Source: an uncultured Prevotellaceae bacterium
GTDB taxonomy: Bacteria; Bacteroidota; Bacteroidia; Bacteroidales; Bacteroidaceae
Reading direction: 5' to 3'
NCBI GenBank assembly: GCA_900316285.1
Contig: ONCG01000021.1
Coordinates: 1-59,055, forward strand
Length of the DNA stretch: 59,055 nucleotides
Below the pieces are notes generated by a model that did no database searches, had not been told where the DNA came from, and worked only from the letters and a program-made list of their open reading frames with translations. Shown piece after piece: positions 2,935-17,575 of the stretch (position 1 is its first letter; the number at the start of each line of letters is the position of its first letter). Both the position numbers and the translations under genes were made by a program.

Positions 2935-3004
2935 CGGGCTGTTAGTGGGCAATGACAGGCGACACAAACAATCACTACTACGCAGCAACAAAAACATAGC
3001 AGGC

Positions 3005-3496
3005 ATGGAGAACTTTGCAGCGATTGACTTCGAGACAGCCAACAACGAGCGGACGAGCGTCTGCTCGGTGGGTGTAGTCGTGGTGCGCGGCGGCGAAATC
3101 GTCGACACGTTCTACTCACTCATCCAGCCCGAGCCGAACTATTATTACTATTGGAACACTCGCGTGCATGGTCTGACACGCGAGGACACGGAGGAGGCTC
3201 CGGTATTTCCAAAGGTGTGGGCACAGATAGAACCTCTCATCGAAGGTCTGCCATTGGTGGCACACAACAAGGCATTTGACGAGTCGTGTCTGAAGGCGGT
3301 ATTCCGCTGTTATCAGATGGACTACCCCGACTATGAGTTCCACTGCACGTGTGTTGCCTCGCGACGCAAGCTGCCACACTTGCCCAACCATCAACTGCAC
3401 ACCGTAGCAGCTGCTTGCGGCTATCTGTTGGAACATCACCACCACGCACTTGCCGATGCTGAGGCTTGCGCTGCTATTGCGATGAAAATATTGTAA
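3005..3496 (+). CDS. DnaQ-like 3'-5' exonuclease (DEDDh)
   Basis: This is a single-domain exonuclease of the DNA polymerase III epsilon type, 163 residues, probably acting in proofreading or nucleic-acid trimming. Exo I is IDFETAN near residue 7, where D and E bind metal. Exo II is VAHNKAFDESCL, and Exo III is the C-terminal HHALADAEACAAIA, with the DEDDh histidine and last aspartate. The frame is open from 2945, but ATG 3005 gives the normal family N-terminus (MENFAAIDFETAN) and was chosen for that reason. It stands alone. A hairpin of the CCTCC...GGAGG repeat family follows the stop codon and may end transcription. Whether it is a polymerase subunit or a stand-alone nuclease cannot be told from the sequence. 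Confidence 0.88.
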   Translation: MENFAAIDFETANNERTSVCSVGVVVVRGGEIVDTFYSLIQPEPNYYYYWNTRVHGLTREDTEEAPVFPKVWAQIEPLIEGLPLVAHNKAFDESCLKAVFRCYQMDYPDYEFHCTCVASRRKLPHLPNHQLHTVAAACGYLLEHHHHALADAEACAAIAMKIL

Positions 3497-3530
3497 GCCC
3501 CACCCCTGACCCTCCCCGAAGGGAGAGGGA
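3497..3530. repeat. Dispersed CCCTCCCC-GAA-GGGAGAGGG hairpin
   Basis: This pyrimidine/purine hairpin directly follows the exonuclease stop codon and resembles the paired elements at 6698-6898, 31907-32077 and 55252-55382. Unlike those it has no inverted partner nearby. It could act as a transcription end for the upstream gene. Confidence 0.5.
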
Positions 3531-3713
3531 GAAAGAAGTTATTATGCTTGCTTAATCATAATTTTGCACTATCTTTGACACAAAATGTCGAAGATACTAC
3601 ATCTCGGCATAAAAAATAAATAGTTTTATTTACATTTCGCTCACTTTCTCGCATCTTTGACCTCCGGTCGAAGATAGGCTGCATCTTGGAAATGAAAATA
3701 AACCGAAATTTAT

Positions 3714-3744
3714 TTTGCATTTCGCTCGATTTGCACTATCTTTG
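3714..3744 (+). promoter_or_regulatory. Promoter of folP-cdaA
   Basis: TTTG (3714-3717), 19 bp, TATCTTTG (3737-3744) is a full match to the Bacteroidetes consensus. The same 15-mer TTTGCACTATCTTTG also occurs at 3563-3577 and at 12467-12481. Transcription should start near 3750, which favours ATG 3765 over ATG 3753 for folP. Confidence 0.75.
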
Positions 3745-3764
3745 CAGTCAGTATGGAATACTGC

Positions 3765-4586
3765 ATGAAAGTGAGGGTTGCTCAAATGAGTCTGGCAGAG
3801 CCGGTAGTGATGGGCATCCTGAACTGCACGCCCGACTCCTTCTATGCCGATAGCCGCAAGCAAACCGAGCAGGAGATAGCCGAGCGGGCACAGCAGATTT
3901 TGGCTGAAGGCGGTCGCATCATTGACGTGGGTGCCTACTCCACCCGACCCGGTCACGAAGTGGTGAGCGAGGAAGAAGAAATGCTGCGCCTGCAGGCGGC
4001 GCTGACGGTGATTCGCCGCGAGGTGCCCAATGCTATAGTGAGCGTCGACACGTTCCGTCCACTGGTGGCCCGCCGCTGCGTGGAGGAATGGGGTGCTGAC
4101 ATGGTGAACGACGTAAACCCTACTCCCAACTCCTCCACAGAGAGAAGCGACGATCGGAAGAAGGCCATGTTCGAGGTAGTGTCTCAGTTGGACGTGCCCT
4201 ATGTACTGATGTCGCAACAGCCAACCATTGAAACGATGCTCAGCGAGTGGGCCGACGACGTGCAGCAACTGCGGTTGATGGGAGCAAAGGACATCATCCT
4301 CGACCCGGGATTTGGCTTCGGCAAGACCCTCAACGAGAACTTCGCCGTGCTCCGTCAGATGGAACGGCTCTCTGTGCTGAGCTTGCCATTGCTCGTAGGA
4401 CTGTCGCGCAAGAGAATGGTCTGGCAGACGCTCAACGTTTCACCCGAAACAGCCCTGAACGGTACCACCGTGCTCAACACCATTGCCCTTCAACAAGGTG
4501 CCAGCATCTTGCGCGTCCATGACGTCCGTGAGGCCTGCGAATGTGTTAAGCTGCTGCGCAACGTGGAAGGTGCTTTGGGCGAGTAA
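3765..4586 (+). CDS. folP: Dihydropteroate synthase
   Basis: This enzyme condenses 4-aminobenzoate with 6-hydroxymethyl-dihydropterin diphosphate in folate synthesis and is the sulfonamide target. Family motifs are in order: MGILNCTPDSFY (pterin-diphosphate loop), GGRIIDVGAYSTRPG, the central MVNDVNP, DIILDPGFGFGKT with the pterin-binding Asp and Lys, and VGLSRKRMVW. ATG 3765 leaves about 14 bases after the expected transcript start. ATG 3753 is in frame and would be almost leaderless. Length (273 residues) is normal. The stop codon lies in GGGCGAGTAAAGCCC, a linker-plus-hairpin string that recurs in the array after the next gene. cdaA follows after 148 bp. Confidence 0.95.
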   Translation: MKVRVAQMSLAEPVVMGILNCTPDSFYADSRKQTEQEIAERAQQILAEGGRIIDVGAYSTRPGHEVVSEEEEMLRLQAALTVIRREVPNAIVSVDTFRPLVARRCVEEWGADMVNDVNPTPNSSTERSDDRKKAMFEVVSQLDVPYVLMSQQPTIETMLSEWADDVQQLRLMGAKDIILDPGFGFGKTLNENFAVLRQMERLSVLSLPLLVGLSRKRMVWQTLNVSPETALNGTTVLNTIALQQGASILRVHDVREACECVKLLRNVEGALGE

Positions 4587-4734
4587 AGCCCTTGTGGCGT
4601 TCAAGAGTTCAAAAGTTCAAGACCCCTCGGACGTTCAAAGCACTACTCGCGTGTGTAACTATTAATTATCAAATGTCCGCTCTACTTTGCCGCTTGCGCA
4701 GCATCGCGGAGCAAGAACTCACAACAAAAAGATA

Positions 4735-5502
4735 ATGCCTTTCGATTTTGGAATAAAAGATACCATCGATATCCTGCTGGTAGCCCTGATGCTCTATTAC
4801 ATCTACCGGCTGATGAAGGAGAGCCGTTCGCTGAACGTGTTCATCGGAATCATGGTGTTTGTGCTCATCTGGCTGTTTGTCAGTCAGGTGCTTGAGATGC
4901 GTCTGATGGGCTCCATCCTCGACAAATTGGTTAGCGTGGGTGTTATCGCACTCATCGTGCTGTTTCAGGAGGAGATTCGTAAATTCCTCTACACGCTCGG
5001 TGCCCACCAGCGTTTCCGCTCGTTCCTGCACTACTTCAAGAACAAGGACAAGGAGCAGGAAGAAGACAAGGAGACCATCATGCCTATCGTGATGGCATGC
5101 ATGAACATGGCTCGCCAAAAGGTGGGTGCACTCATCGTGGTGGAACGTGGCGTAGCCCTCGACGACATCGTTGAGACGGGCGACAAGATCGATGCCGCCA
5201 TCAACCAGCGACTCATCGAGAACATCTTCTTCAAGAACTCGCCGCTCCACGATGGTGCTATGGTCATCTCGAAGAAGCGTATCAAGGCTGCAGGTTGCAT
5301 CCTGCCCGTGAGCCATAACCTCGACATTCCAAAGGAATTGGGCCTGCGCCACCGTGCCGGACTAGGCATCTCGCAGGCATCGGATGCCATCGCCATCATC
5401 GTCAGTGAGGAGACGGGGCGCATCTCTGTTGCCAACAAGGGCGAGTTCCGCCTGCGCCTATCGGCCGAAGAACTTGAGGCTGTGCTGGCGAAGGAAATGT
5501 AG
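4735..5502 (+). CDS. cdaA: Diadenylate cyclase CdaA
   Basis: This membrane-bound enzyme makes c-di-AMP from two ATP; the messenger controls potassium, osmotic and cell-wall homeostasis. The 255-residue protein has three hydrophobic N-terminal helices (about residues 10-30, 34-52 and 62-80), a short charged linker (KNKDKEQEEDKE) and a DAC domain. The catalytic motifs are LHDGAMVI near residue 170 and RHRAGLG near 205. The frame is open from 4687, but ATG 4735 starts exactly where CdaA proteins begin (MPFDFGIKDTIDILLVALML). The gene is downstream of folP on the same strand. The folP-cdaA order is, as I recall, common in Bacteroidales. No CdaR-like partner gene follows directly. Confidence 0.93.
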   Translation: MPFDFGIKDTIDILLVALMLYYIYRLMKESRSLNVFIGIMVFVLIWLFVSQVLEMRLMGSILDKLVSVGVIALIVLFQEEIRKFLYTLGAHQRFRSFLHYFKNKDKEQEEDKETIMPIVMACMNMARQKVGALIVVERGVALDDIVETGDKIDAAINQRLIENIFFKNSPLHDGAMVISKKRIKAAGCILPVSHNLDIPKELGLRHRAGLGISQASDAIAIIVSEETGRISVANKGEFRLRLSAEELEAVLAKEM

Positions 5503-5612
5503 GACGCGCCTGCGGCGAGAAAAGTGCTTCGCACGGGTAAGGCCCTCCGGGCGAGTAAAGTGCCTGCTGCACGGGTAAAGCCCTTCGGGCGGGTAAAGTG
5601 CTTCGCACGTGA
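5503..5612. repeat. Array of alternating mini-hairpins, 18-bp period
   Basis: Five short hairpins follow each other: GTGC-TTC-GCAC (5524-5534), GCCC-TCC-GGGC (5542-5552), GTGC-CTGCT-GCAC (5560-5572), GCCC-TTC-GGGC (5580-5590) and GTGC-TTC-GCAC (5598-5608). Each pair is separated by exactly 7 bases reading GGGTAAA or close to it. A weaker CGCCTGCGGCG precedes them. The array fills most of the cdaA-pta gap; no coding function is apparent. Confidence 0.8.
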
Positions 5613-5688
5613 AAACGTGGAAGGCGCAGCACACGATAAATAAGGAATGATGCATTTTCAATTTTAATTTTTAATACAATACACTACT

Positions 5689-6696
5689 ATGGATCTATTA
5701 CAACAAATCGTAGCACGCGCGAAAGCCAACAAGCAGCGCATCGTGCTTCCTGAGGCAGAAGAAGAGCGCACTCTGCGCGCTGCCGACCGCGTATTGGCTG
5801 AAGACATGGCCAACATCATCCTCATTGGTAACCCCGAGAGCATCAAGGCCGATGCCGAGAAGTATGGACTTCAGAACATCGACAAGGCTACCATCATCGA
5901 CCCGCTGAACAACCCCCGTAGCGAGGAGTATGCAGAACTGCTGGCCGAGCTGCGCAAGAAGAAGGGCATGACCATCGAGCAGGCTCGCGAGCTGGTGAAG
6001 AACCCACTCTATCTGGGCTGCATGATTATCAAGACTGAAGGTGCCGACGGACAGATTTCTGGTGCTCTCTCGACAACGGGTGACACGCTGCGCCCGGCTT
6101 TGCAGATTATCAAGTGCGCTCCTGGCATTACCTGCGTCAGCGGTGCCATGCTGCTCATCACCAAACAGCCTCAGTATGGTGAGAATGGTGTAGTCGTCGT
6201 TGGCGACGTGGCCGTGACGCCCATGCCCGATGCCAACCAGCTGGCACAGATTGCCGTCTGCACCGCACAGACCGCTAAGTCAGTGGCTGGCTTCGAAGAT
6301 CCGCGCGTGGCAATGCTTAGCTTCTCCACGAAGGGTAGCGCCTCACACGAGGTGGTCGACAAGGTTGTCGAGGCAACAAAACTGGCCAAGGAGATGGCTC
6401 CCGAGCTGAAGATCGACGGTGAGCTGCAGGCCGATGCCGCCCTCGTTCCCTCGGTAGGAAAGAAGAAGGCTCCCGGCAGCGACATCGCAGGTAACGCCAA
6501 TGTGCTGGTATTCCCCAACCTCGAAGTCGGCAACATTGGCTACAAACTCGTACAGCGCCTTGGCGATGCCATCGCCATCGGCCCCATCCTGCAAGGTATC
6601 GCCCGTCCCGTGAACGACCTGTCGCGTGGCTGCTCAGTCGACGACATCTACTACATGGTCGCCATCACCGCCTGCCAAGCCATGGACGCAAAGTAG
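5689..6696 (+). CDS. pta: Phosphate acetyltransferase
   Basis: The enzyme converts acetyl-CoA and phosphate to acetyl phosphate and CoA, feeding acetate kinase for ATP in fermentation. The 335-residue product is the short, single-domain Pta. It starts MDLLQQIVARAKANKQRIVLPE and contains the PTA_PTB signatures RIVLPEAEEERTLRAA, GALSTTGDTLRPALQII and FPNLEVGNIGYKLVQRL. It is followed by ackA after 203 bp that hold a 31-bp perfect inverted repeat. No consensus promoter is visible in the AT-rich 40 bases before the start, so expression from the cdaA side or from a divergent promoter type is possible. Confidence 0.96.
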   Translation: MDLLQQIVARAKANKQRIVLPEAEEERTLRAADRVLAEDMANIILIGNPESIKADAEKYGLQNIDKATIIDPLNNPRSEEYAELLAELRKKKGMTIEQARELVKNPLYLGCMIIKTEGADGQISGALSTTGDTLRPALQIIKCAPGITCVSGAMLLITKQPQYGENGVVVVGDVAVTPMPDANQLAQIAVCTAQTAKSVAGFEDPRVAMLSFSTKGSASHEVVDKVVEATKLAKEMAPELKIDGELQADAALVPSVGKKKAPGSDIAGNANVLVFPNLEVGNIGYKLVQRLGDAIAIGPILQGIARPVNDLSRGCSVDDIYYMVAITACQAMDAK

Positions 6697-6697
6697 C

Positions 6698-6898
6698 AAC
6701 CTCCCCCAACCCCTCCGAAGGAGGGGAGGATCTACCGGAGCATCACATTTATTAAATTTAAAGTAACAACCCGAACTTCCTCTCATGTTTCGTAAGACAC
6801 ATCCTTTTGAGAATGAGTGAGAAGGTTCATTAGAAAGTCTGGCTATCCCCCTGAAACCCGCCAGGCACTCCCCTCCTTCGGAGGGGTTGGGGGAGGTT
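6698..6898. repeat. 31-bp perfect inverted repeat between pta and ackA
   Basis: The left arm 6698-6728 (AACCTCCCCCAACCCC then a TCCGAAGGA-centred hairpin) is exactly complementary to the right arm 6868-6898, across 139 bp. Each arm is also a small hairpin by itself. The right arm ends one base before the ackA start codon at 6900, so a pta-ackA transcript could sequester the ackA start region. The same arm sequence recurs in 31907-32077 and, more loosely, 55252-55382. Confidence 0.85.
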
Positions 6899-6899
6899 T

Positions 6900-8099
6900 A
6901 TGAAAATTTTAGTACTGAATTGTGGTAGTAGTTCCATCAAGTATAAACTTTACAACATGGACGATGAGTCCGTGTTGGCACAGGGTGGCGTAGAGCGCAT
7001 CGGCCTCGACAACGCCTTCCTGAAGCTCACCCTGCCTAACGGAGAGAAGAAAATCCTCATGCACGACATGCCCGACCACAAGGAAGGCGTGAACTTCGTG
7101 TTCCAGACGCTGCTCAGCGAGGAGTATGGTGCCATCAAGAGCCTCGACGAAATCGACGCCGTGGGCCATCGCATTGTGCAAGGTGGCGACCTCTTCGAGA
7201 AGAGCTGCCTCGTGAACGAAGGCGTGGAGGCAGGCATTGAGAGTCTCTGCGACCTCGCACCCGTTCACAACGCCGGTCACCTGAAGGGTATTCGCGCCGT
7301 GGATCACCTCATGCCCGAGGTGCCGCAGGTCACCGTGTTCGACAATGCCTTCCATAGCACCATGCCCGCCCACGCCTATCTCTATGCTGTTCCCTACGAG
7401 CTGTATGAGAAGTACCACGTGCGCCGCTATGGCTTCCACGGCACCTCTCACCGCTACGTTTCGCACCGCGTGGCTGAGCTGATGGGCAAGGACATCAAGG
7501 ATTTGAAGATCATCACCTGCCACATCGGCAACGGCGCCTCGGTGGCTGCCATCAAGGATGGTAAGGTCATCGACACCTCGATGGGTCTCACCCCGTTGGC
7601 AGGTGTGATGATGGGCTCGCGCTCAGGCGACATCGACGCCTCGGCCGTGACCTACATCATGGATAAGCTGAACCTGAAGCCCCAGGAGATGGCCGACTTC
7701 CTGAACAAGAAGTCGGGTGTTCTCGGCATCACCGGCATCTCCAGCGACATGCGTGACATCGAGGAAGCTGCCAACAAGGGCAACGAGCGTGCCCAGCTCG
7801 CCCTCCGCATGTACAACTACCGCATCAAGAAGTACATCGGTTCGTATGCTGCCGCTATGGGTGGCGTAGATGTCATCGTCTGGACGGCTGGTGTTGGCGA
7901 GAATCAGATCTCCACTCGCATGGAGGCCTGCTCGGGTCTGGAGTTCCTCGGCGTGAAGATGGATGCCGAAGCCAACAACTGCCGTGGCGAGGAGAAGCTC
8001 ATCTCTGCTCCCGACTCAAAGGTGCAGGTATGGGTGGTGCCCACCGACGAGGAAATCGTCATCGCCCGCGACACCATGGAACTGGTGAAGAAATCATAA
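6900..8099 (+). CDS. ackA: Acetate kinase
   Basis: The enzyme transfers phosphate from acetyl phosphate to ADP, giving acetate and ATP, the second half of the Pta-AckA pathway. The 399-residue product shows the ASKHA signatures: N-terminal LVLNCGSSSIKYKLY, the HRIVQGG segment, YGFHGTSHRYVS, CHIGNGASVAAIKDG and the C-terminal WTAGVGENQ. Length is normal. The start codon directly follows the right arm of the inverted repeat at 6868-6898, leaving no room for a Shine-Dalgarno sequence. A strong intrinsic terminator follows at 8119-8150. Confidence 0.97.
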   Translation: MKILVLNCGSSSIKYKLYNMDDESVLAQGGVERIGLDNAFLKLTLPNGEKKILMHDMPDHKEGVNFVFQTLLSEEYGAIKSLDEIDAVGHRIVQGGDLFEKSCLVNEGVEAGIESLCDLAPVHNAGHLKGIRAVDHLMPEVPQVTVFDNAFHSTMPAHAYLYAVPYELYEKYHVRRYGFHGTSHRYVSHRVAELMGKDIKDLKIITCHIGNGASVAAIKDGKVIDTSMGLTPLAGVMMGSRSGDIDASAVTYIMDKLNLKPQEMADFLNKKSGVLGITGISSDMRDIEEAANKGNERAQLALRMYNYRIKKYIGSYAAAMGGVDVIVWTAGVGENQISTRMEACSGLEFLGVKMDAEANNCRGEEKLISAPDSKVQVWVVPTDEEIVIARDTMELVKKS

Positions 8100-8118
8100 A
8101 CACCAACCACCTGCTGAG

Positions 8119-8150
8119 ACACCCCGCAACTCTCTGCGGGGTGTTTTTTT
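8119..8150 (+). terminator. Intrinsic terminator of pta-ackA
   Basis: A 10-bp perfect stem ACACCCCGCA/TGCGGGGTGT with a 6-base loop is followed by a run of T (8144-8150). Confidence 0.9.
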
Positions 8151-8194
8151 GTCCTTTCAAGGTTAAAAATCGAGAGGATTCCCGTCTTTATAGT

Positions 8195-9058
8195 ATGGAT
8201 ATGATGGAACGTGACTACAAAAGCAAGTTGGAACAACTATATAGGCAGCATCTCGAAGAAATGTGCCTGTTGGCCGATAGCATCCTGCACAACTCAGAAG
8301 AAGCAAGAGATGTTGTCGGCGAGGTATTCGCGCGCATTGCCGAGCAGAAGCCACTGGTAGAGGCAGACAAATGGCAGGGCTATCTGCTCACGGCGGTGCG
8401 CAACCGCTGTCGCGACATTGTAGCACATCGAAAAGTAGAGCAGAAGGCGATAGTAAGGTTGAGCCGTGAGCATGAAGGCACCGATGAAGAAGTCGGCGTG
8501 GAGGGACACGAAGCTGTCGACATGCTACGCTTTGCCGAGCGAGAGTTGCCGCCGCGCACGAGCCAAGTGTTTGTCATGCGATTTGAGGAGAATAAGAGCT
8601 ACCGCGAAATTTCACACGAGCTGGGTATCAGCATCCCGGCTGTCTACAAGCATGTACTGCTGGCCCGACGCAAAATCACGGCTCGCTTTGTGGTGAGCAT
8701 AGCATTGTTGCTCATGGTGGCAGCAGCTGTGGCCGTCGGCGTGAGGTTTGCTTTCCACAAGTCATCGGTCAGCCCTGCCGAAGAAAAGTCTGTGCAGACC
8801 GTTACGCAAGTGGAGGAGAAGAGCCAGCAGCCGCCAGTCACTGTCACTTTCGAGAATACTGCCCTTGCCAACATCGTGAAGCAGATTGCCGACTATCATC
8901 ATGTCGGTGTCAGCATCCGCAATGCCGAGGCCGCCAAGTTGCGACTCTATTTCCAATGGAACCAGCAGGATGCATTGTCGGAAACAGTTGACATGCTGAA
9001 CCGGTTTGAGCGCTTCAGCATCGTGCAGGCTGCCGATGGCACGCTCGTTGTGGAATAA
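8195..9058 (+). CDS. ECF-like sigma factor fused to a membrane helix and an STN/DUF4974-like domain
   Basis: The 287-residue protein starts at ATG 8195 (ATGs 8201 and 8204 are alternatives). Residues 10-80 look like sigma region 2 (LYRQHLEEMCLLADSIL, SEEARDVVGEVFARI, WQGYLLTAVRNRCRDI). Residues 106-160 look like sigma region 4 (LPPRTSQVFVMRFEENKSYREI, then the helix-turn-helix ISIPAVYKHVLLARRKI). Residues 165-184 form one transmembrane helix. After a linker, 214-287 match the FecR C-terminal DUF4974/STN fold (VTVTFENTALANIVKQIADYH, then the final strand TLVVE). FecI sigma and FecR anti-sigma are normally separate; here the anti-sigma helix and central FecR domain are absent and the signal-receiving tail is joined directly to the sigma factor. 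It stands behind a strong terminator with no TAnnTTTG box, so it may use another promoter type. The next gene starts 36 bp later. Confidence 0.85.
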   Translation: MDMMERDYKSKLEQLYRQHLEEMCLLADSILHNSEEARDVVGEVFARIAEQKPLVEADKWQGYLLTAVRNRCRDIVAHRKVEQKAIVRLSREHEGTDEEVGVEGHEAVDMLRFAERELPPRTSQVFVMRFEENKSYREISHELGISIPAVYKHVLLARRKITARFVVSIALLLMVAAAVAVGVRFAFHKSSVSPAEEKSVQTVTQVEEKSQQPPVTVTFENTALANIVKQIADYHHVGVSIRNAEAAKLRLYFQWNQQDALSETVDMLNRFERFSIVQAADGTLVVE

Positions 9059-9093
9059 CATCCTTGCTAATTGAAACAAAGAGCATCCTCCCT

Positions 9094-10494
9094 ATGAAGA
9101 AAACCCACCTCCTACTGACAATAATGTTGCTATTGCCCACGCTGGCTCGGTCACAGCACATCAGCCATACCTTCCGAAACGTATCGCTGGCAGACGCCTT
9201 GATGACCATAGACCGCATGAGCGAAGAGTGGCAAGTAAGCTTCATCTACGACGACTTGGAAGACTACCGGGTCAGCTGCATTGTGAGCGACAAGAGCGTG
9301 CCTGAGGCTGTGCATGCCCTCATCGGCTATTACCCCATGCGCATCGAGATCAGCGAGGGGCACATCTTCGTGGAATGCACGCAGCGTTTGCCCTACAAGT
9401 TCATTGGCCGCCTCGTCGATGACAAAGGACAACCGGTCACCTATGCCAACATTGCGCTCTACAGTATAACTGATTCTACACGCATTGCCAGCGGGGTGAG
9501 CAATCAGGACGGGCATTTCACAATACCTTGCACGCAGCAGCAGGCACGCGTGCGCATCAGCCACGTCGGCTTTGCTACATGGTGGAGGCAGATGAAGATG
9601 ACGAACGTGGGCACCCTGCGCCTACAGACAGCAACAGAGCACCTGCAAACCGTTGATGTAGCACAACAACAAGATGAGCTGCCAGTATATCAAAACAACT
9701 ACAAGCGCTATGCCAACGCCGTTCGCAAGCGTGTCTGGTCGATGTCCCTGCCTTCTTTTCAGCTCACTACCGCCCCCGAGGCGTTCGCCGACAGTGGGTC
9801 TGTGATATTAGCGAAGTATGCGGAATTCAACATTCTGAACCAAAACAATAGCTGGCCCTTTGCCAGTATGTTGGGACTCATTGGTGCCGTTGGCTCAGCC
9901 ATAGCTTATAAAAACAGTCCTCATAGTTCCGAATTATGCCGCGTCAGGGTGTTGCTCAACAATCAGGAAAGTGTCAGTCGGTGGTCGACGCTGGCAGGTT
10001 ATCAGCCATGCATGCATCTCTGGGACGCTGGTCGGTCGGTAGTAGGAGTCCGCATTGTCAAGCCTGACGGCAGCATATGCGAGGTGAATGTCGACGATGT
10101 TATGGAAGCCATCCTACTGAAAAAGATATGGGTGCCTCGTTCTCAGCCACTGACGATTACCGGTCTGCAGGTGGGCGACATCCTCGATGTGTTCTATTTC
10201 AATGAAGAAGTACTCGATGAACTGCGTTCTGGTTCCTACACTATAGACTTCGCCGATGGTGAACCTACACTCGACATCATCTATCGCGTAGCAACAATGT
10301 CTGCCTATCATACCGACTTCGAATCGCTGCACATGCTAAAGGTAAGACGTGGCTACGACCGACATGGTAACCGGCTCTGTGCGCTGCATGATTCTTATGC
10401 CGACGGACAGCCCGACCGCGACTTGCGGCGTCTTCATATCAACTATTGGCGTGGCAAGCATCCCAAGAAAAGAAAGGGAGTCGAAAAGCAATAA
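9094..10494 (+). CDS. Periplasmic STN plus carboxypeptidase-regulatory-like protein without a receptor barrel
   Basis: The 466-residue product has a Sec signal peptide (residues 1-20, MKKTHLLLTIMLLLPTLARS). An STN-like domain spans about 22-95 (VSLADALMTIDRMSEEWQVSFIY form) and a CarboxypepD_reg-like beta sandwich about 100-175 (GRLVDDKGQPVTYANIAL, SNQDGHFTIPC). In TonB-dependent transducers these two precede the plug and barrel, but here no barrel follows. The C-terminal half is poorly conserved; about 310-370 (VRIVKPDGSICEVNVDD, ITGLQVGDILDVFYF) recalls DUF3857 of transglutaminase-linked proteins, without any transglutaminase domain. Its position 36 bp after the sigma/STN fusion suggests it is the periplasmic partner or target. 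Function unknown. Confidence 0.72.
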   Translation: MKKTHLLLTIMLLLPTLARSQHISHTFRNVSLADALMTIDRMSEEWQVSFIYDDLEDYRVSCIVSDKSVPEAVHALIGYYPMRIEISEGHIFVECTQRLPYKFIGRLVDDKGQPVTYANIALYSITDSTRIASGVSNQDGHFTIPCTQQQARVRISHVGFATWWRQMKMTNVGTLRLQTATEHLQTVDVAQQQDELPVYQNNYKRYANAVRKRVWSMSLPSFQLTTAPEAFADSGSVILAKYAEFNILNQNNSWPFASMLGLIGAVGSAIAYKNSPHSSELCRVRVLLNNQESVSRWSTLAGYQPCMHLWDAGRSVVGVRIVKPDGSICEVNVDDVMEAILLKKIWVPRSQPLTITGLQVGDILDVFYFNEEVLDELRSGSYTIDFADGEPTLDIIYRVATMSAYHTDFESLHMLKVRRGYDRHGNRLCALHDSYADGQPDRDLRRLHINYWRGKHPKKRKGVEKQ

Positions 10495-10541
10495 ATAACC
10501 AACTGAAGAGTTCAATTATATATAATAAGGTGAGAAATAGA

Positions 10542-11501
10542 ATGAAAACTATGAAGAAAACAACGAAACATTTCATGGGTCTGATGTGCCTGACGGGTTT
10601 TATGCTGACAAGTTGCACACCAAGAATAGTAACCCACATCTACAACGAGCGCGCACCGCTGCCCGTTGACTCCGTACATATCTTCCTGCCAGGCGAGCGA
10701 GTGCCGTCAACAGCAGTCGTCGTGGGCGATGTCGCAGTGAAGGATCGCGGCACCACCACGAAGTGCAACTACGACTACGTGGTGCAACTGGGCAAGGAAA
10801 CGACGGCGAAGCATGGCGGCAACGCCCTGCAGATAGCAGAGCACCGGTTGCCGTCCTACAAGAGCACCTGCCACCAGATATTCGGCAACATGCTCTACAT
10901 GACTCCCGAAGAGATGTATTCGACGATGACCGACACATTGTCGTTCCTCGCTTCCGACGATACCTTCGGCGCACAGGTCGTCTACACGGAACGACGACCC
11001 AACCCGAAAAACGTCATAAAGTTGAGTGTAGGCCCCTCGCGCATTACATCGAAGGTGTATTCGCCTTATGGCAAGGTACACAAGAAGATGGGACTCGATG
11101 TCATGCTGAACTACGAGCACATCGGCTACCGCAACTTCGGCTTCGGCTTCACGACGGCCTTCAACCGCACCACCTACGGCGGCATGAGCGACCAGACCTT
11201 CTTCTACGTCGGCCCCGACTTCGTCATCAGCCATGTGACGACGAAGAACTGGCGCTGGGACGTAGGTATCGGCATGGGCTATACCACCTACAGCGAGACG
11301 GGTGGCGGCAGTGGCGGTGGCTTCGGCGCACTGACGCGGCTGGGTGTGGAGTACGTACTCGGCAACCATTTCGCTCTCGGTGTCGACTGGAACATGATGC
11401 GTCGCACCTTCTCGGCACCTAAGGACTTCCACCTTGAGAAAAACGAGCGATACGGCTTCGACAGCATGAGCCTAACCGCAGGCATGCGCTTCTATTTCTA
11501 A
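10542..11501 (+). CDS. Outer-membrane lipoprotein with C-terminal beta-barrel
   Basis: This 319-residue protein has a lipoprotein signal (MKTMKKTTKHFMGLMCLTGF then the lipobox LTSC, cysteine near residue 24). ATG 10551 is an equally good start. The N-terminal part (HIYNERAPLPVDSVHIFLPGERVPSTAVVVGDVAVKD, shown here only as short pieces: PLPVDSVHIF, VVVGDVAVKD) resembles small periplasmic sandwich domains. From about residue 170 the pattern alternates as in an eight-stranded outer-membrane barrel and ends in LTAGMRFYF, a typical C-terminal barrel signal with final Phe. It is 47 bp after the STN protein and 38 bp before the next barrel gene, so all four genes are probably one operon. No close named family was recognised. 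Confidence 0.72.
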   Translation: MKTMKKTTKHFMGLMCLTGFMLTSCTPRIVTHIYNERAPLPVDSVHIFLPGERVPSTAVVVGDVAVKDRGTTTKCNYDYVVQLGKETTAKHGGNALQIAEHRLPSYKSTCHQIFGNMLYMTPEEMYSTMTDTLSFLASDDTFGAQVVYTERRPNPKNVIKLSVGPSRITSKVYSPYGKVHKKMGLDVMLNYEHIGYRNFGFGFTTAFNRTTYGGMSDQTFFYVGPDFVISHVTTKNWRWDVGIGMGYTTYSETGGGSGGGFGALTRLGVEYVLGNHFALGVDWNMMRRTFSAPKDFHLEKNERYGFDSMSLTAGMRFYF

Positions 11502-11539
11502 AAAACAAGAACAGACAGAACAGACGTAACGACAATCTC

Positions 11540-11755
11540 ATGAAACAATGTAGATTATTCCTTTTGGGCATCGTCATCCTCCTATGGTGCATGCCGTCTC
11601 GAGCGCAAGACATCGTAATCGCCGACACACTTCGCACTGATACCACACGCAACGAGCGGTTAGAGCGATATCTAGAGCAGGTATTTGGAAAACGACCTGA
11701 CCAGATAGCTACGCGAGAAGATGCAAAAAACGCACAGGCGAACTGCATGTGCTAA
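11540..11755 (+). CDS. N-terminal part of a frameshifted small outer-membrane barrel protein
   Basis: This 71-codon frame encodes a Sec signal peptide (MKQCRLFLLGIVILLWCMPS then RAQD) and a short linker (RNERLERYLEQVFGKRPDQ), then ends at TAA 11753-11755. The barrel that should follow is in the -1 frame (11749-12273). Just before the end lies GCA AAA AAC, a slippery heptamer in the correct register. Read with a -1 shift there, the product continues ...KRTGELHVLKFSGGVSL without interruption into the barrel. It is either a programmed frameshift, a recent homopolymer indel or a base-calling error. Treat it with the next entry as one gene of about 244 residues. Confidence 0.7.
   Translation: MKQCRLFLLGIVILLWCMPSRAQDIVIADTLRTDTTRNERLERYLEQVFGKRPDQIATREDAKNAQANCMC
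11725..11731 (+). promoter_or_regulatory. A_AAA_AAC slippery heptamer (possible -1 frameshift site)
   Basis: The zero-frame codons are GCA AAA AAC, which is the canonical X_XXY_YYZ arrangement for tandem -1 slippage. A 5-bp stem GCACA (11732-11736)/TGTGC (11748-11752) follows at once, without the 5-8 base spacer usual for a stimulator, so the support from structure is weak. Confidence 0.5.
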
Positions 11756-12273
11756 AGTTCAGCGGCGGTGTCAGCCTAATCACTTCTGATCTGCAAGTGG
11801 GCGACGACGCCCATGAACATCTCCCAGGATTGGAGTACATGTTGGAGTTTGAAGATATATTCGACAAAGGCAGAGGCAGAGGTCGTGGTGTAGGCTTCAT
11901 CTTTAAGGGAAGCCGGTATCGGGACGGCTACCTCCGCTTCAACCTCTATCACTTCGGTTTGAACCGTGTGTGGTGCAACATGCCCTCGTCGAGTCATTGG
12001 CGCTGGGAACTGGCTCTCGGCGGCGGTGCCAGCTACCTTCATGACAAAAGCGACTTCTCAAGCTTCTACTATTATGCTGATGATTCCAAATTCGGCTTGG
12101 GTGTTCTGCTGAAGGCTGGCATCGAAAGCCGACTGAGCAAGCACGTGGGACTAGGCCTGGAGGCCAATACCATCTATCACATCTTCTTCGACAGCAATTC
12201 CAAAGTCGAAGACAAGCCCATCAACGGAATCGTCAGCACCGACTTGATGCTGGGTCTGCGCTTCTATTTCTGA
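11749..12273 (+). CDS. C-terminal barrel part of the frameshifted outer-membrane protein
   Basis: The open frame shown here begins with a GTG inside the upstream frame, but sense continues further upstream in this frame back to the slippery site at 11725. The 174 residues form a beta-barrel pattern (LKFSGGVSLITSDLQVG, DGYLRFNLYHFGLNRVW, WRWELALGGGASYLH, HVGLGLEANTIYHIFF) and end in LMLGLRFYF, closely like the end of the preceding gene (LTAGMRFYF). It contains the unusual run GRGRGRGVGF. Without the upstream signal peptide this piece could not reach the outer membrane, so its function depends on frameshifting at 11725-11731 or it is a broken gene. Confidence 0.7.
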   Translation: MLKFSGGVSLITSDLQVGDDAHEHLPGLEYMLEFEDIFDKGRGRGRGVGFIFKGSRYRDGYLRFNLYHFGLNRVWCNMPSSSHWRWELALGGGASYLHDKSDFSSFYYYADDSKFGLGVLLKAGIESRLSKHVGLGLEANTIYHIFFDSNSKVEDKPINGIVSTDLMLGLRFYF

Positions 12274-12466
12274 CAAAACAATCATAAACTTGGTTTGGCA
12301 TTGGTATAGCACATCAATCGTGTTGTATCAATGCCCTATTTGTGTTGATAGGTTCGGCAATAAGAACAAAAAAAATGCTTTTTTGTTTTATATTGTCATC
12401 GATTTAGATAAATTTCTCACGCTCAAGAATGAAAATTCATTTCAATTCTCTTCGCTTAATCGAAAT

Positions 12467-12481
12467 TTTGCACTATCTTTG
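12467..12481 (+). promoter_or_regulatory. Promoter core of the sugar kinase gene
   Basis: The 15-mer TTTGCACTATCTTTG contains TATCTTTG at 12474-12481, 22 bp before the start codon. At the -33 position the sequence is TTCG (12451-12454), one base off TTTG, with a 19-bp spacer. The rest of 12274-12450 is AT-rich and shows nothing further. Confidence 0.6.
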
Positions 12482-12503
12482 CACTGATAAACTACAAACA
12501 GAA

Positions 12504-13520
12504 ATGAAAAAGATCGTTACATTCGGAGAGATATTGCTGCGCTGGTCGAAAGGCGGTGCACAGCGGTTGAAACAAGGTAGTGACTGGACGGGCAAGTTTG
12601 GAGGCTCGGAAGCCAACGTGGCGGTGTCGCTTGCGATGCTGGGCAACAAGGTTGGCTATGTGTCGCGTGTACCACAAAACGAGGTGGGACAGGCATGTCT
12701 GAACGAGCTGCGCTACTACGGCATCGACACACGCGATGTGGTGCGCGGTGGCGACCGTCTTGGCACCTACTATTTCGAGGCTGCTGCCGGCCTGCGTCGC
12801 TCGCAGGTGGTCTACGACCGTCGCGGCTCGTCGTTCTACTCGTGTGCTCCGGGCATGTTCCCCTGGCGCGACATCTTCAGCCGTACCGACATCTTCCATT
12901 GCTCGGGCATCACCTGCGCCGTGTCGCAGTCGGCAACCGATGCCACGTTCGAGGCCGTGCGCACGGCAAAGGACATGGGACTGCGCATCACGTGCGACAT
13001 CAACTTCCGCAAGAACCTCTGGCGCTACGAAGGAGCCGATGCCCACAAGACGCTGAACGCGCTGATGCAGTATAGCGACTACATCTTTGGCGATCAGGAT
13101 GAGTGGGAGGTGGCCACAGGTGTGAAGCAGGTGCCGATGGACCACATGATGGCCGATACGGAACTCGACATGGATGCCTATCGTCGCTATTTCGACGAGA
13201 TGCACCGCCAGTTCCCAAACTGTAAGGAGATGATGCTCGGTCTGCGCAACCAGATCACGTCGACCCACCACACGCTGACGGCGCTGCTGTGGTATGAGGG
13301 CGAAATCTATCAGGCACGCATCTACGACATCTACCCCATCGTAGATCCTGTGGGCGTGGGCGATGCCTTCGTAGCCGCCTATATCCACGCGGCCGAGAAA
13401 TGGAAGGGCGAGCCCCAGCGCTGCCTCGACTTCTCGGTGGCAGCCTCGCAGCTGAAGAACTCCGTTGCCGGCGATTTCAACCTCGTTACCGAGGATGAAA
13501 TCCTGCAATTCATAAAGTAA
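12504..13520 (+). CDS. kdgK: PfkB-family sugar kinase, probably 2-dehydro-3-deoxygluconokinase
   Basis: A ribokinase-fold cytoplasmic kinase of 338 residues; the best guess is phosphorylation of 2-keto-3-deoxygluconate from uronate breakdown. Signatures: N-terminal ITVFGE-like IVTFGEILLRW, the GGSEANVAVSLAMLG substrate loop, CDINFRKNLW, the DQDEWEVATG segment and the C-terminal anion hole and catalytic base DPVGVGDAFVAAYIHA. The last motif is usually DTxGAGD; here Thr and Ala are replaced (DPVGVGD), with the catalytic Asp kept. The start at 12504 was chosen over upstream in-frame codons because it lies 22 bp after the promoter box and gives the normal N-terminus. The substrate is inferred, and fructokinase-like activity cannot be excluded. 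It ends before a bidirectional terminator. Confidence 0.75.
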   Translation: MKKIVTFGEILLRWSKGGAQRLKQGSDWTGKFGGSEANVAVSLAMLGNKVGYVSRVPQNEVGQACLNELRYYGIDTRDVVRGGDRLGTYYFEAAAGLRRSQVVYDRRGSSFYSCAPGMFPWRDIFSRTDIFHCSGITCAVSQSATDATFEAVRTAKDMGLRITCDINFRKNLWRYEGADAHKTLNALMQYSDYIFGDQDEWEVATGVKQVPMDHMMADTELDMDAYRRYFDEMHRQFPNCKEMMLGLRNQITSTHHTLTALLWYEGEIYQARIYDIYPIVDPVGVGDAFVAAYIHAAEKWKGEPQRCLDFSVAASQLKNSVAGDFNLVTEDEILQFIK

Positions 13521-13532
13521 GAGGCACAAAAG

Positions 13533-13575
13533 AAAGCCCCACCTTGGCTAGAGGAGCCAGGGTGGGGCTTTTTGT
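13533..13575. terminator. Bidirectional intrinsic terminator
   Basis: AAAGCCCCACC (13533-13543) pairs with GGTGGGGCTTT (13561-13571), with an inner TGGCT/AGCCA stem and T tracts on both strands. It serves the kinase gene on the plus strand and the patatin gene that converges from the other side. Confidence 0.9.
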
Positions 13576-13620
13576 TTTGTATAATCGCAGGAGTTACTTG
13601 TCTGCTCCCAACAACAAAGC

Positions 13621-15888
13621 TTAGAACACGAAGCCGAGGTTGATGAAGAAGTTGGCCTTCTTGGTAATGTTGCAATAGCTCAGCGTTGCACCCAGCGGAC
13701 CGAACATCGTGTTGTAGTAATAGCCGGCAGAGAAGCCGAGCATTGTGCGGTAGTCGAGCAAGTCGCTCAGTGCATCGGCATTCTGACCTGCGGCAACGCG
13801 CAAGAGCACGATGTTGTTCTGCGTGAGGTTCACCTGTCCTTGCAGTTGTGCAGCCAGGAGCTTATCCCATGCCATCTCGACGTGTCCGATACCTGCGAAG
13901 GGCACCTGTTGCTCAAAGTAGTGGCCGAACCACTCGCCACCAATCATATTGCTGATGATGAGCGGCGGGTTCTTTCCGAAGAGCATGCGTCCATAGAGCA
14001 TGGGCTGGAATGAAAGGTATTTGTTGGCGGCAAACGACATGCGCCACATGCCATAGAGCTCGCTGATGCCCGTATGGTCGTTCAGGGAGTAGAAGTTGTC
14101 GGTGTAATAGGTGAAACGTGCCATGAACTTCGCTCCTCGCGTGGGGAAGTACCACTCGTTCTCGCCATTGTAGTTGACCGTAGCGTAATAGTTGAAGAAG
14201 TGCTTGTTTTTGGGTATACTGATCTGGTGCTCCGGCAGGTCGTTGACAAGCAGGTTGCTATAAGTGTAGTAGTTCCACTCGGCACCAATGCTCACATCGA
14301 AGTTTCGCACCATGAAATTAAGAGGAGCCGCCTTGAAGGAATGATGGTTATAAGTGACGTTATAGCTCTTCGAACCATACTCATAGATGTTCACATCGTT
14401 GTGACGGAAGGCGTAGGACACCGTGGGACGCAGGAAGCTGGCGGGGTGGAAGCTCCAGTCGGCTTTTGCCATGATGCGCTTGCCGAGTCGGAGTGTGAAG
14501 TCGAGCTCCATCGGCATCTTTGCACGGAACGGCAGCGCGGCATTGGCCTGCAGCGCCACCATCTCTTCGTTATCGAAGCGTAAGCCGACACTCACCTGAT
14601 TGGTTTTCTTCTCGCCTCCCACGAAGCTGATTCTTGCTGCCGAGGTGCCATCGGGCAGCGGGATGGCATTGTTCTCGATGCGACAGTCGGCAGTCTTATA
14701 GAAGAGGTCGAGTCGCATGGCAGTGGTGATGAGGTCGGTGCGGTAGGTGTCGATGCTATCGCCTTCCTTCAGGTGGAACTTCGTACGGATGAACAACTCA
14801 TCGCCAGTATTCATGTTTTCAAATCGCAGCTGTCCGATCTTAAACGACGTGGGCGGCACGAGTGGTTGCCGATGAATGTGGATGCGAGGCATGGGCATGA
14901 TGGCTGTTGCCTCTTTCAGTTTGTTAGACAACGCCACCAGCTCGTCCCAATGCTCCATGGCCGCCTCCTCACCTCTGCGGATGAGTGTGTCGATAGCTGC
15001 ATGGTTGAAGGATGCCGAGCCATAACCGGTGGTGTTCACACGGATGGGAATATCGGTGATGGCGAGGTTATCGTCGTACTTGTTCTTACAGTTCACATCG
15101 ACAATCTGCGAGAGCACCGCTGCCGTTGAAGCGATGTCGTCGGCCGTCTTGGGCTTGGCCTGCACCGTCACACCGATGATGAAGTCGGCCCCCATCTGTT
15201 TGGCGATATCGGCAGGGAAGTTGTTACGCAAGCCACCGTCGACGAGTAATTTATCGCCCATGCGCACGGGTGAGAAGGCACCGGGAATCGACATACTGGC
15301 TCGCATGGCCGTGCTGAGCACACCGCTATGGAAGACGTACTCCGTGTTGTCGACGATGTTTGTTGCCACACAAGCGAAAGGAATGGGCAGTTTGTTGAAG
15401 TCGATGGAGTCGTTGTAGGGTGCCGTCAGCGCGTTGAACAACGTGCGGATGTTCTTTCCGATGATCACACCACCTTCCGAATCCAGCGATTTCTTCCCCA
15501 GGTTCAAGCTCGTGGAGATGACGTAAGTGTTCTTCTTCTCACGTTCCAGAAGACTCTGATGACTCAGGTCGTCCTTGTCGGAGAGCACATACGCCCAGTC
15601 CTGTACACGAACCATGGAATCGAGGCTGGCGGTGGTGTTGCCGCAGGCATAGAGTCCGCCGATGATGCTACCCATACTGGTACCCGTCACGATGTCGATG
15701 GGTATGCCAGCCCGTTCGATGACCTTCAGCGCACCAATGTGAGCCATGCCTTTCGCACCACCGCCGCTGAGCACGACAGCCACGCGCGGCCTCGGCTGAA
15801 ATGGTGCCTTTGATATCTCTTGTCCGCTGGTCTTCAACGCATGTCCCATGCAGAGACATGTCATCATGATCAATGCTGTTTTCTTCAT
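13621..15888 (-). CDS. Patatin-like phospholipase with BamA/TamA-type outer-membrane barrel
   Basis: The 755-residue product has a Sec signal (MKKTALIMMTCLCMGHAL). A patatin domain carries the oxyanion loop GGGAKG at 42-47, the nucleophile Ser71 in GTSMG, and DGG in KLLVDGGLRNNFP. A POTRA-like linker follows, then a C-terminal half of alternating strands ending in FINLGFVF, as in Omp85-type barrels. The layout matches the type V secreted PlpD/RssA-like family of Bacteroidetes, where the lipase is tethered to or passed through its own barrel. Substrate is presumably membrane phospholipid. A sulfatase gene ends 13 bp upstream on the same strand, so they are likely co-transcribed; the reason for that pairing is not clear. 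Confidence 0.9.
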   Translation of the reverse strand: MKKTALIMMTCLCMGHALKTSGQEISKAPFQPRPRVAVVLSGGGAKGMAHIGALKVIERAGIPIDIVTGTSMGSIIGGLYACGNTTASLDSMVRVQDWAYVLSDKDDLSHQSLLEREKKNTYVISTSLNLGKKSLDSEGGVIIGKNIRTLFNALTAPYNDSIDFNKLPIPFACVATNIVDNTEYVFHSGVLSTAMRASMSIPGAFSPVRMGDKLLVDGGLRNNFPADIAKQMGADFIIGVTVQAKPKTADDIASTAAVLSQIVDVNCKNKYDDNLAITDIPIRVNTTGYGSASFNHAAIDTLIRRGEEAAMEHWDELVALSNKLKEATAIMPMPRIHIHRQPLVPPTSFKIGQLRFENMNTGDELFIRTKFHLKEGDSIDTYRTDLITTAMRLDLFYKTADCRIENNAIPLPDGTSAARISFVGGEKKTNQVSVGLRFDNEEMVALQANAALPFRAKMPMELDFTLRLGKRIMAKADWSFHPASFLRPTVSYAFRHNDVNIYEYGSKSYNVTYNHHSFKAAPLNFMVRNFDVSIGAEWNYYTYSNLLVNDLPEHQISIPKNKHFFNYYATVNYNGENEWYFPTRGAKFMARFTYYTDNFYSLNDHTGISELYGMWRMSFAANKYLSFQPMLYGRMLFGKNPPLIISNMIGGEWFGHYFEQQVPFAGIGHVEMAWDKLLAAQLQGQVNLTQNNIVLLRVAAGQNADALSDLLDYRTMLGFSAGYYYNTMFGPLGATLSYCNITKKANFFINLGFVF

Positions 15889-15901
15889 ATTGTTTCCTAT
15901 T

Positions 15902-17575
15902 TTATTCTTTCACTTGTAGTTGCTTGCGATATCGGAGCAGCTCGCGCATGAGCTTGCGGGTGATGCGCTCGGTGCCGGGCTGCCCGTAGATATTGTTGAG
16001 CTCGTGGGGATCGGCCTGCAGGTCGTAGAGCTCGTAGTAGTCGATGTCGGGGTCGTTGGTGATGTACCCCGATTGTGCCATCCCCTTATAGCTGTTGTTC
16101 TCGCGCGTGCCGGCCTGCTGTTGGTACTTGTTCTCCTGCAGGGCACGTTCGCCGCCATGACCATAGAAGTGGATAAGCTTATAGCGGTCGGTGCGAACGC
16201 CGTCATGCTTGCGTGCCAGGTGCCAGGCGGGATAGTCGTAGTAGTGGTAGTAGAGCGACTTGCGCAGGCGCTTCTTTCCCTTGAACAACGCGCGCAGCGA
16301 GTGGCCCGTCATCTGCTTCGGCTGCTTCACACCGGCATAGTCGAGAAAGGTGGGCGCGTAGTCGATGTTCTGCACCATCGCCGTGCTGACGGTTCCTGCG
16401 GGAATGTCGCGTGGATAGCGCATGACGAGTGGCGTTCGCAGACTCTCCTCATACATGAACCGCTTGTCGAACCAGCCGTGCTCGCCCAAGTAAAAACCTT
16501 GGTCGGAGGCATAGACGACGATGGTGTTCTCGGCCAGGCCGTGTTCGTCGAGGTAGCGCAGCAGGCGACCTACGTTCTCGTCGATGCTATGAATGACGGA
16601 AAGGTAGTCGCGCAGGTATGTCTGGTACTTCCACTCCACCAGCGCCCGGCCGGTGAGGCTGTCGCGCTGGAAGCGGTTGTAGCGGTCGCCGAAGTATTGC
16701 TCGTAGGCCTTTCGCTCATCGGCATTCAGGCGGCCGTATTCAGCAATGGTCCGGCGGAAGCGGTCGACAGGGCGTCCCACCGAATCAACCTTCAAGTCGA
16801 GGGCCAGTTCCATGTCCTTGTCAATCGACATCTTCTGCGTGTGGGCGGCCGAGCCACGCGTGGAGTAGTCGTCCCACATGGTCTCGGGCAGGGGGAACTC
16901 GGTGTTGTCGTACATGCCCAGATACTTCACATCAGGAAACCAGCTGCGATGAGGTGCCTTATGGTGAACGAGCAGACAGAACGGCTTCGATGCGTCGCGA
17001 TGGTCGAGGAAGTCAATGGCGTGGTCGGTGATGAGATCGGTGGCATAGCCTTCCTCACGGATATACTTCCCGTCAGAGGTCGGACTCTTGAACTCCGGAT
17101 TCCAATAGGAGCCTTGGTCGTAGAGCACATGATAACTATCGAAGCCCTTCGGCTCGCACATGAGGTGCCACTTGCCAATCATGCAGGTCTGGTAGCCTGC
17201 CTGCTGGAGCAGTTCAGAGAAGAAGGTGCGCGTGGAGTCGATGCCTTCGAGCAGCATCTGCTGTCCGTTCTGATGGCTGTAGAGACCCGTGATGAGGCAG
17301 GCACGGCTGGGCGACGACAGCGAGTTTTCGACAAACGCCTGGTCGAAGCGCACGCCCTCGCGGGCAATGCGGTCGATGTTGGGCGTGGGAGCGAGGCGGC
17401 CGATGGGGTGACCATAGGCTGATACGGCCTGGTAGGCGTGGTCGTCGCTCATGATGTAGATGATGTTGGGTCTCTGCGAGCCGGCGCGTCCCTTTTGCGA
17501 CGCCGGTTGTGCAGCCACGTCGGGCAGGGTGTTCGCGGCGGCGAGCGCCAACAGCGGGAGTACTTTCTTTGCCAT
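15902..17575 (-). CDS. Exported Ser-type sulfatase
   Basis: This 557-residue arylsulfatase-superfamily enzyme has a Sec signal (MAKKVLPLLALAAANTLPDV). The metal site PNIIYIMSDDHAYQAVSAYG holds the Asp pair at 44-45 (shown: IMSDDHAYQ). The formylglycine motif is S87-S-P-S-R, so the residue oxidised to formylglycine is Ser and activation needs an anaerobic radical-SAM maturase (anSME). Further motifs are GKWHL, the DQGFYLGEHGWFDKR active-site segment and a C-terminal YELYDLQADPHELNN tail. The layout is that of glycan sulfatases such as N-acetylglucosamine-6-sulfatase or iduronate sulfatase, but the exact substrate cannot be read. No maturase or polysaccharide-utilisation genes are adjacent. It precedes the patatin gene by 13 bp. 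Confidence 0.9.
   Translation of the reverse strand: MAKKVLPLLALAAANTLPDVAAQPASQKGRAGSQRPNIIYIMSDDHAYQAVSAYGHPIGRLAPTPNIDRIAREGVRFDQAFVENSLSSPSRACLITGLYSHQNGQQMLLEGIDSTRTFFSELLQQAGYQTCMIGKWHLMCEPKGFDSYHVLYDQGSYWNPEFKSPTSDGKYIREEGYATDLITDHAIDFLDHRDASKPFCLLVHHKAPHRSWFPDVKYLGMYDNTEFPLPETMWDDYSTRGSAAHTQKMSIDKDMELALDLKVDSVGRPVDRFRRTIAEYGRLNADERKAYEQYFGDRYNRFQRDSLTGRALVEWKYQTYLRDYLSVIHSIDENVGRLLRYLDEHGLAENTIVVYASDQGFYLGEHGWFDKRFMYEESLRTPLVMRYPRDIPAGTVSTAMVQNIDYAPTFLDYAGVKQPKQMTGHSLRALFKGKKRLRKSLYYHYYDYPAWHLARKHDGVRTDRYKLIHFYGHGGERALQENKYQQQAGTRENNSYKGMAQSGYITNDPDIDYYELYDLQADPHELNNIYGQPGTERITRKLMRELLRYRKQLQVKE

Follow-up and report, generated by a model that had tools for sequence, protein, structure and literature searches.

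In the genome of an uncultured Prevotellaceae bacterium, one open reading frame without breaks encodes regions 2 and 4 of an extracytoplasmic function (ECF) sigma factor, a single transmembrane (TM) helix and an STN-like tail. This architecture is genuine and recurs within the genus. We propose, at a probability of about 0.6, that it acts as a self-contained switch in cell-surface signalling, a tethered sigma factor that would sense a partner protein, be freed by proteolysis and activate its own operon. The gene, encoding 287 aa, was found in contig ONCG01000021.1 of assembly GCA_900316285.1 (3.89 Mb); the whole stretch analysed, 59,055 nt, is referred to as the window and its features are listed in Table 1. 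The start codon of the fusion is ambiguous (candidates at 8195, 8201 and 8204), because a promoter-like motif ends near 8195.

Table 1. Features of the window at and around the fusion gene
Feature	Position	Strand	Basis or remark
Terminator-like hairpin CCCCGC/GCGGGG with T run, after acetate-kinase-like gene	8122..8150	+	Read by eye
ECF-type promoter-like motif GGTTAAAA-N14-CGTCTTT	8161..8189	+	Genome-wide pattern search
Fusion protein: ECF sigma, TM helix, STN-like domain	8195..9058	+	Pfam, TIGR, hydropathy, AlphaFold2, Foldseek
ECF sigma regions 2 and 4 (residues ~10-163)	8222..8683	+	Pfam, TIGR02985
Membrane helix (residues ~165-187)	8687..8755	+	Hydropathy, AlphaFold2
STN-like FecR_C/DUF4974 domain (residues 216-286)	8840..9052	+	Pfam, AlphaFold2, Foldseek
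Partner: signal peptide, STN-like (22-95), carboxypeptidase-regulatory-like (101-176), beta-rich C-terminal region	9094..10494	+	Pfam, profiles, structure
Lipoprotein-like protein, C-terminus resembling 8-stranded barrel; downstream, same direction	10542..11501	+	OMP_b-brl E 3.6e-4, below cut-off
Second barrel-like protein, fourth operon gene	11540..12273	+	Frame shifts near 11750 in window copy

Pfam and TIGR profiles, hydropathy and Foldseek agree on the combination described by an earlier, sequence-only reading of the window: sigma regions 2 and 4, one TM segment and a FecR-type tail in one polypeptide. Pfam recognizes Sigma70_r4_2 (E 9.6e-13, residues 116-161) and FecR_C/DUF4974 (PF16344; E 7.7e-6, residues 218-276, 26.3 bits against a cut-off of 24.4), and Sigma70_r2 is matched at E 3.4e-4 (residues 15-77) with 20.8 bits where the cut-off is 24. 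The best family is TIGR02985 (Sig70_bacteroi1; E 4e-28, residues 13-162), its 98.7 bits also falling below the cut-off, 126.4. Among 19 aligned fusions, regions 4 and 2 are found in all and FecR_C in 14 (Pfam, E ≤ 0.01), and every one has a single TM segment by hydropathy. The N-terminus and the central domain of FecR are absent, as the same reading had it. A profile of the cytosolic anti-sigma domain has no match at E ≤ 0.1 in any of the 19 fusion loci (positions 3001-16000 of the window were scanned), and no separate anti-sigma gene was seen beside the fusions. The 21 families that these 19 proteins match at E ≤ 0.01 include neither the juxta-membrane/central FecR domain PF04773 nor any zinc-finger family. 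A linker of ~28 residues is the sole segment between the TM helix and the STN-like domain.

The AlphaFold2 model has an overall pLDDT of 76 and a pTM of only 0.34. The tail (residues 221-287) has a mean pLDDT above 90 and a confident STN-like fold, the linker (190-211) is disordered, and residues 147-189 are modelled as a single helix in which the final region-4 helix is continuous with the TM segment (block means 66-79). Foldseek matches the front half of this model to ECF sigmas and the tail to the PupR CCSSD (6ovk_R; 1.8 Å, 71 columns, E 3.5e-3), with further matches to BDI_1681 (4m0n), an anti-sigma of Parabacteroides, and to the signalling domain of FecA (1zzv). As modelled, the tail would equal the STN subdomain of PupR in fold. 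Searched against PDB sequences, the tail alone gave no credible match (best E 0.22), and a profile of the whole fusion found ECF sigmas and helix-turn-helix proteins with no match for the tail. The TM helix is flanked N-terminally by the basic residues RRKITAR. Under the positive-inside rule, a basic TM flank marks the cytoplasmic side, which makes the sigma part cytoplasmic and the tail periplasmic.

Full-length fusions occur in 19 of the 398 genomes sampled from the window's genus, the window's own included (E 2.5e-183 to 3.3e-41). The matches that follow, the strongest at 2.8e-37, are confined to the sigma part, and 114 of the 398 genomes match at E ≤ 1e-25; these counts refer to the best six candidates at most per genome, many of the genomes being incomplete drafts. 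Searches with the 19-row profile in samples of the order (393 genomes), the family (301) and the phylum (296), at E cut-offs of 1e-25, 1e-38 and 1e-30, respectively, gave no further full-length fusion; at these cut-offs fusions of other sigma groups may be missed. Viral contigs contained no relative. Three long frames outside the genus were rejected: in G113 and G081 (270 aa) the sigma is separate, its frame reads through upstream and the second gene is a different one, and the 415-aa frame of G075 (C6:345113) is a split module.

Split homologues of the fusion are common. The window's own genome has 13 places with FecR_C, among them five split modules (on contigs C7, C11, C15, C22 and C34), and on C33 a sigma of the classical kind accompanied by a FecR of 372 residues. 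The order in a split module is a sigma gene, a short anti-sigma protein and an outer-membrane protein with STN and CpD domains, and in the short anti-sigma an ‘EHPE.YSDEQL’-type cytosolic domain is followed by a TM segment and DUF4974, again with no FecR domain. L127, from a different family of the order, is a module of the same kind. Such Bacteroidales modules (e.g. L127, L001 and L124) share with the fusion a homologous sigma, the TM segment, DUF4974 and the gene order, but they are two genes and carry the cytosolic anti-sigma domain that the fusion lacks. The profile of this domain matches all ten split loci, among them L127, which unlike the other nine was outside its training set. By sequence comparison, the fusion is a split module minus the cytosolic anti-sigma domain. 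When the fusions L140 and L142 are aligned as DNA with L066 and L018, their split sisters, an in-frame deletion is seen that removes the stop of the sigma gene, the start of the anti-sigma gene and the entire cytosolic domain, and both flanks of the deletion align.

Trees were built from the sigma domain (51 rows, 19 fused and 32 split) and from sigma plus tail (47 rows); the four rows dropped between them, L002, L075, L077 and L037, are three of classical FecR length or distant and one odd long branch. Both trees require three changes between fused and split by parsimony. That all 19 fusions form one clade is rejected by the AU test (p 2.2e-7); joining subclades A (with L047) and B is rejected less strongly (p-AU 0.024), these groups having been named after the tree was seen. 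The fusion thus seems, from the trees, to have arisen more than once. Three changes alone do not distinguish gain from loss, and we infer that regain of a cytosolic domain between fused halves is less likely than its loss. Subclade A comprises the window and L041-L044, with L047 joining on weak support, and in its five core members the fusion lies downstream of acetate kinase. Subclade B has 11 loci, most of them downstream of a pepD-like gene, and subclade C (L057 and L058) is placed among split sisters. Subclades B and C have their nearest split relatives in L018, L061, L063, L066 and L092, and the anti-sigmas of these five loci have unusually short cytosolic domains, possibly a step toward fusion.

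In the mechanism that we favour, the fusion's own membrane helix would hold the sigma at the inner membrane, where the helix of region 4 would lie against the anchor, and tethering away from RNA polymerase would replace a separate anti-sigma. The periplasmic STN-like domain would pair with the STN-like domain of the adjacent partner. A signal at the partner would lead periplasmic and intramembrane proteases of the Prc/RseP type to trim the fusion, and the freed sigma would transcribe, from the promoter-like motif, its own operon, which includes the two barrel-like outer-membrane proteins. Pairing, inhibition by tethering, proteolysis and autoregulation are all steps that we infer. The sequence-only reading had offered both release by proteolysis and action while tethered, and the precedent of IutY of Pseudomonas putida (PMC5411451, PMC8999054) makes proteolysis the better supported of the two. 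According to the portions of these papers available, IutY belongs to group ECF243, acts in aerobactin cell-surface signalling, is an experimentally studied sigma-TM-FecR fusion and is released by Prc and then by RseP. In the genome of the window, RseP is matched once and Prc three times above cut-off, which says little, since most control genomes also contain homologues of these general enzymes. A gene for a Prc-family protease also lies in the window itself (19277-20227, minus strand; 285 bits, above cut-off), ~10 kb from the fusion.

The terminator-like hairpin upstream suggests that the fusion may have its own promoter. The 15-base motif GGTTAAAA-N14-CGTCTTT has one exact match in the 3.89 Mb genome and two others with two mismatches. 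A shorter form, GGTTAAAA-N14-CGTCT, precedes all five subclade A fusions, its first base lying 34 to 66 bases before the ATG, and in each of the five genomes the site at the fusion is the one exact match. Matches elsewhere with one mismatch number 0 to 3 per genome, not above the reversed control; at one to two mismatches the reversed patterns give equal or more matches than the motifs. In subclade B, the motif T[TA][AG][GA]CATTT-N12-TGTA[CT]TAT is present in 8/11 loci, and TTRGCATTT-N12-TGTACTAT with up to two mismatches recovers the fusion site in 10/11 genomes, being exact in six of them and there the sole exact match. In G349 no B site was found at the fusion within two mismatches, and a one-mismatch site stands directly before another sigma gene; G213 has a second site with one mismatch. 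The B motif also stands upstream of the split sister sigmas L061 and L063 and therefore follows the sigma lineage, fused or split. First-order random sequence (4.18 million bases) gave no match to either pattern. The motifs were derived from the sequences on which they are scored, and the independent part of this evidence is their rarity elsewhere in the genomes.

Action while tethered is retained as a rival, though an unlikely one. The sigma would then work uncleaved, STN pairing altering its shape or oligomeric state so that RNA polymerase is recruited to the one promoter of this sigma at the membrane. ToxR and CadC are membrane-bound transcription activators to which such a protein may be likened. 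One exact motif site per subclade A genome, at its own operon, would spare an anchored sigma any search of the chromosome, and the linker and TM helix have been retained. Against this, a region-4 helix that runs into the TM segment, as modelled, would crowd the DNA-contacting helix at the membrane, and IutY is activated by cleavage, its truncated forms being constitutively active in the available text of PMC8999054 and PMC9249621. A specific single-target form, in which STN pairing would reposition the continuous helix formed by region 4 and the anchor, with the own operon alone transcribed at the membrane, we regard as quite unlikely. If true, recurrent loss of the anti-sigma domain in separate lineages would be an evolutionary path that reduces two-gene surface signalling to a one-component transmembrane sigma.

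The sequence-only reading had a tethered sigma sensing a periplasmic partner directly; an adjacent STN-like partner is present, as such sensing would predict. An STN-like protein comes directly after the fusion in 18/19 loci and second next in L130, where a 331-residue protein intervenes; fusion stop and next start overlap by 4 bases in 14/19. All 16 partners of subclades A and B have a signal peptide, an STN-like domain and CarboxypepD_reg, and the Pfam STN, barrel and plug families are absent from the 11 families listed for them. Elsewhere, the partner in L143 has an OMP_b-brl_3 barrel (E 2.1e-48) and that in L140 (850 aa) matches no barrel family at E ≤ 0.01. Profile alignment of the fusion tail with the partner's STN-like domain gave probabilities of 80 (global) and 92 (local), E ~1e-6, against 0.1 and 1.4 for a control with the partner's CpD domain. 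At the level of profiles the two domains are related, and the STN-like domains of regulator and transducer are likewise related in PupR/PupB, as described in the accessible part of PMC7186176.

It is improbable that the tethered and released sigma takes its cue elsewhere, the periplasmic domain dimerizing or reading another signal, such as the state of barrel proteins or of the envelope. Neither the STN nor the juxta-membrane subdomain of PupR alone bound the receptor domain in vitro, in the text available of PMC7186176. By analogy, this would count against partner pairing here, the fusion and the split modules being without a juxta-membrane part. The partner in the window's subclade also has no recognizable barrel or plug, unlike an ordinary transducer, and the same genome encodes an orphan DUF4974 protein (L007 1339-1713, on C22) with a signal peptide and with neither sigma nor TM anchor, located before an STN receptor, which by its sequence would be a secreted receiver domain alone. 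Against such a cue stands the gene order, with an STN-like protein beside the fusion at every one of the 19 loci and the frequent 4-base overlap.

The sigma half might also be inactive as a sigma, the protein serving as a membrane-bound decoy or anti-sigma for its paralogues. The subthreshold region 2 of the window's copy and the five split paralogues in the genome would suit this very unlikely reading, but regions 2 and 4 match in all 19 fusions and the core is kept: at 25 positions conserved to at least 80% in 28 split sigmas, the 19 fusions retain the same residue in 87% of cells. The dN/dS ratio between the window and L009 is 0.09 for sigma, 0.075 for the TM segment, 0.40 for the linker and 0.098 for DUF4974 (against L010, synonymous sites are nearly saturated), values that point to purifying selection on sigma, TM helix and tail. 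A conserved ECF-type promoter-like motif that tracks the sigma lineage is a further argument against a decoy. That two genes were merged by an assembly or sequencing error near residue 165 has a negligible probability, since besides this dN/dS profile the fusion is present in 19 genomes down to 27% identity to the window copy, two of them named, separately assembled public MAGs (uncultured Prevotellaceae bacterium, 89%; Prevotella sp., 64%) in which it is full length and the surrounding gene order is kept.

The sequence-only reading knew of no described example of this exact architecture, a view that IutY corrects; the accessible text of PMC8999054 presents IutY as the sole experimentally characterized protein for the tethered-sigma mechanism. 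As far as these sources go, both proteins have a cytosolic ECF sigma, one TM segment and a periplasmic part ending in an STN-like domain in one polypeptide; IutY is encoded beside its receptor, and the fusion beside an STN-like protein. The periplasmic part of IutY resembles the whole periplasmic domain of FecR, in the available portion of PMC9249621, whereas the fusion has the STN-like part only; the IutY receptor, IutA, is a TonB-dependent barrel whereas the window's partner has no recognizable barrel; and the phyla differ. What differs from IutY is thus the absence of the juxta-membrane FecR subdomain, the barrel-less partner in the window's subclade, the other phylum and more than one origin. 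Going by the descriptions of IutY, the fusion would be a smaller variant that originated separately in Bacteroidota. A literature search, largely confined to papers outside subscription, found no report of such a fusion in this phylum.

Other relatives are more distant in design. FecI/FecR and PupI/PupR likewise combine an ECF sigma, an STN-like periplasmic receiver and an STN-like transducer domain, but they are separate proteins with a cytosolic anti-sigma domain and a juxta-membrane subdomain, in the part of PMC7186176 available. The actinobacterial groups ECF48, ECF52 and ECF53 (SCO4117) share an ECF sigma with a membrane-crossing C-terminal extension, as given in the accessible text of PMC8999054, but have zinc-finger and other extracytoplasmic domains in place of an STN-like one. 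A second, smaller and repeatedly arisen design in Bacteroidota would show that both the cytosolic anti-sigma and the juxta-membrane FecR subdomains are dispensable. In what could be consulted of PMC7406223, a class I anti-sigma neighbour is given for 6% of Bacteroidetes ECFs against an average of 32%. The short DUF4974 anti-sigmas and the fusions are candidates for the missing regulators of Bacteroidetes ECFs. The layout of one promoter and one gene makes the fusion a compact test case and possibly an orthogonal switch for gut Prevotella.

Several minor features of these operons deserve mention. The order of genes through the homologue of the lipoprotein-like protein is the same in L009 and L010. 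The fourth gene, whose frame changes near 11750 in the window, has intact counterparts in L009 (9329-10072) and L010 (9332-10084); the change may be an assembly error or a real loss. The beta-rich region of the partners weakly resembles DUF3857 (3/16 partners at E ≤ 0.1), and the second-ranked Foldseek match of the window's partner is 3kd4 (BDI_1141; TM-score 0.31), which we take to be a DUF3857 structure; these matches are too weak for the name to be used. Subclade B partners are longer in L135 (5043-6956, 637 aa) and L138 (1724-3526, 600 aa), where an added C-terminal region resembles, by eye, a transglutaminase-like remnant. In G349, a second partner-like gene with STN and CpD domains (L137 6955-8403 in reverse-complement coordinates, 482 aa) lies 3' of the fusion operon. 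Finally, a small protein, presumably a four-helix bundle of the 23S-intervening-sequence type, is encoded before the acetate kinase gene in L009 (4202-4633), L010 (4219-4611) and L128 (1423-1794, reverse-complement coordinates) but not in the window.
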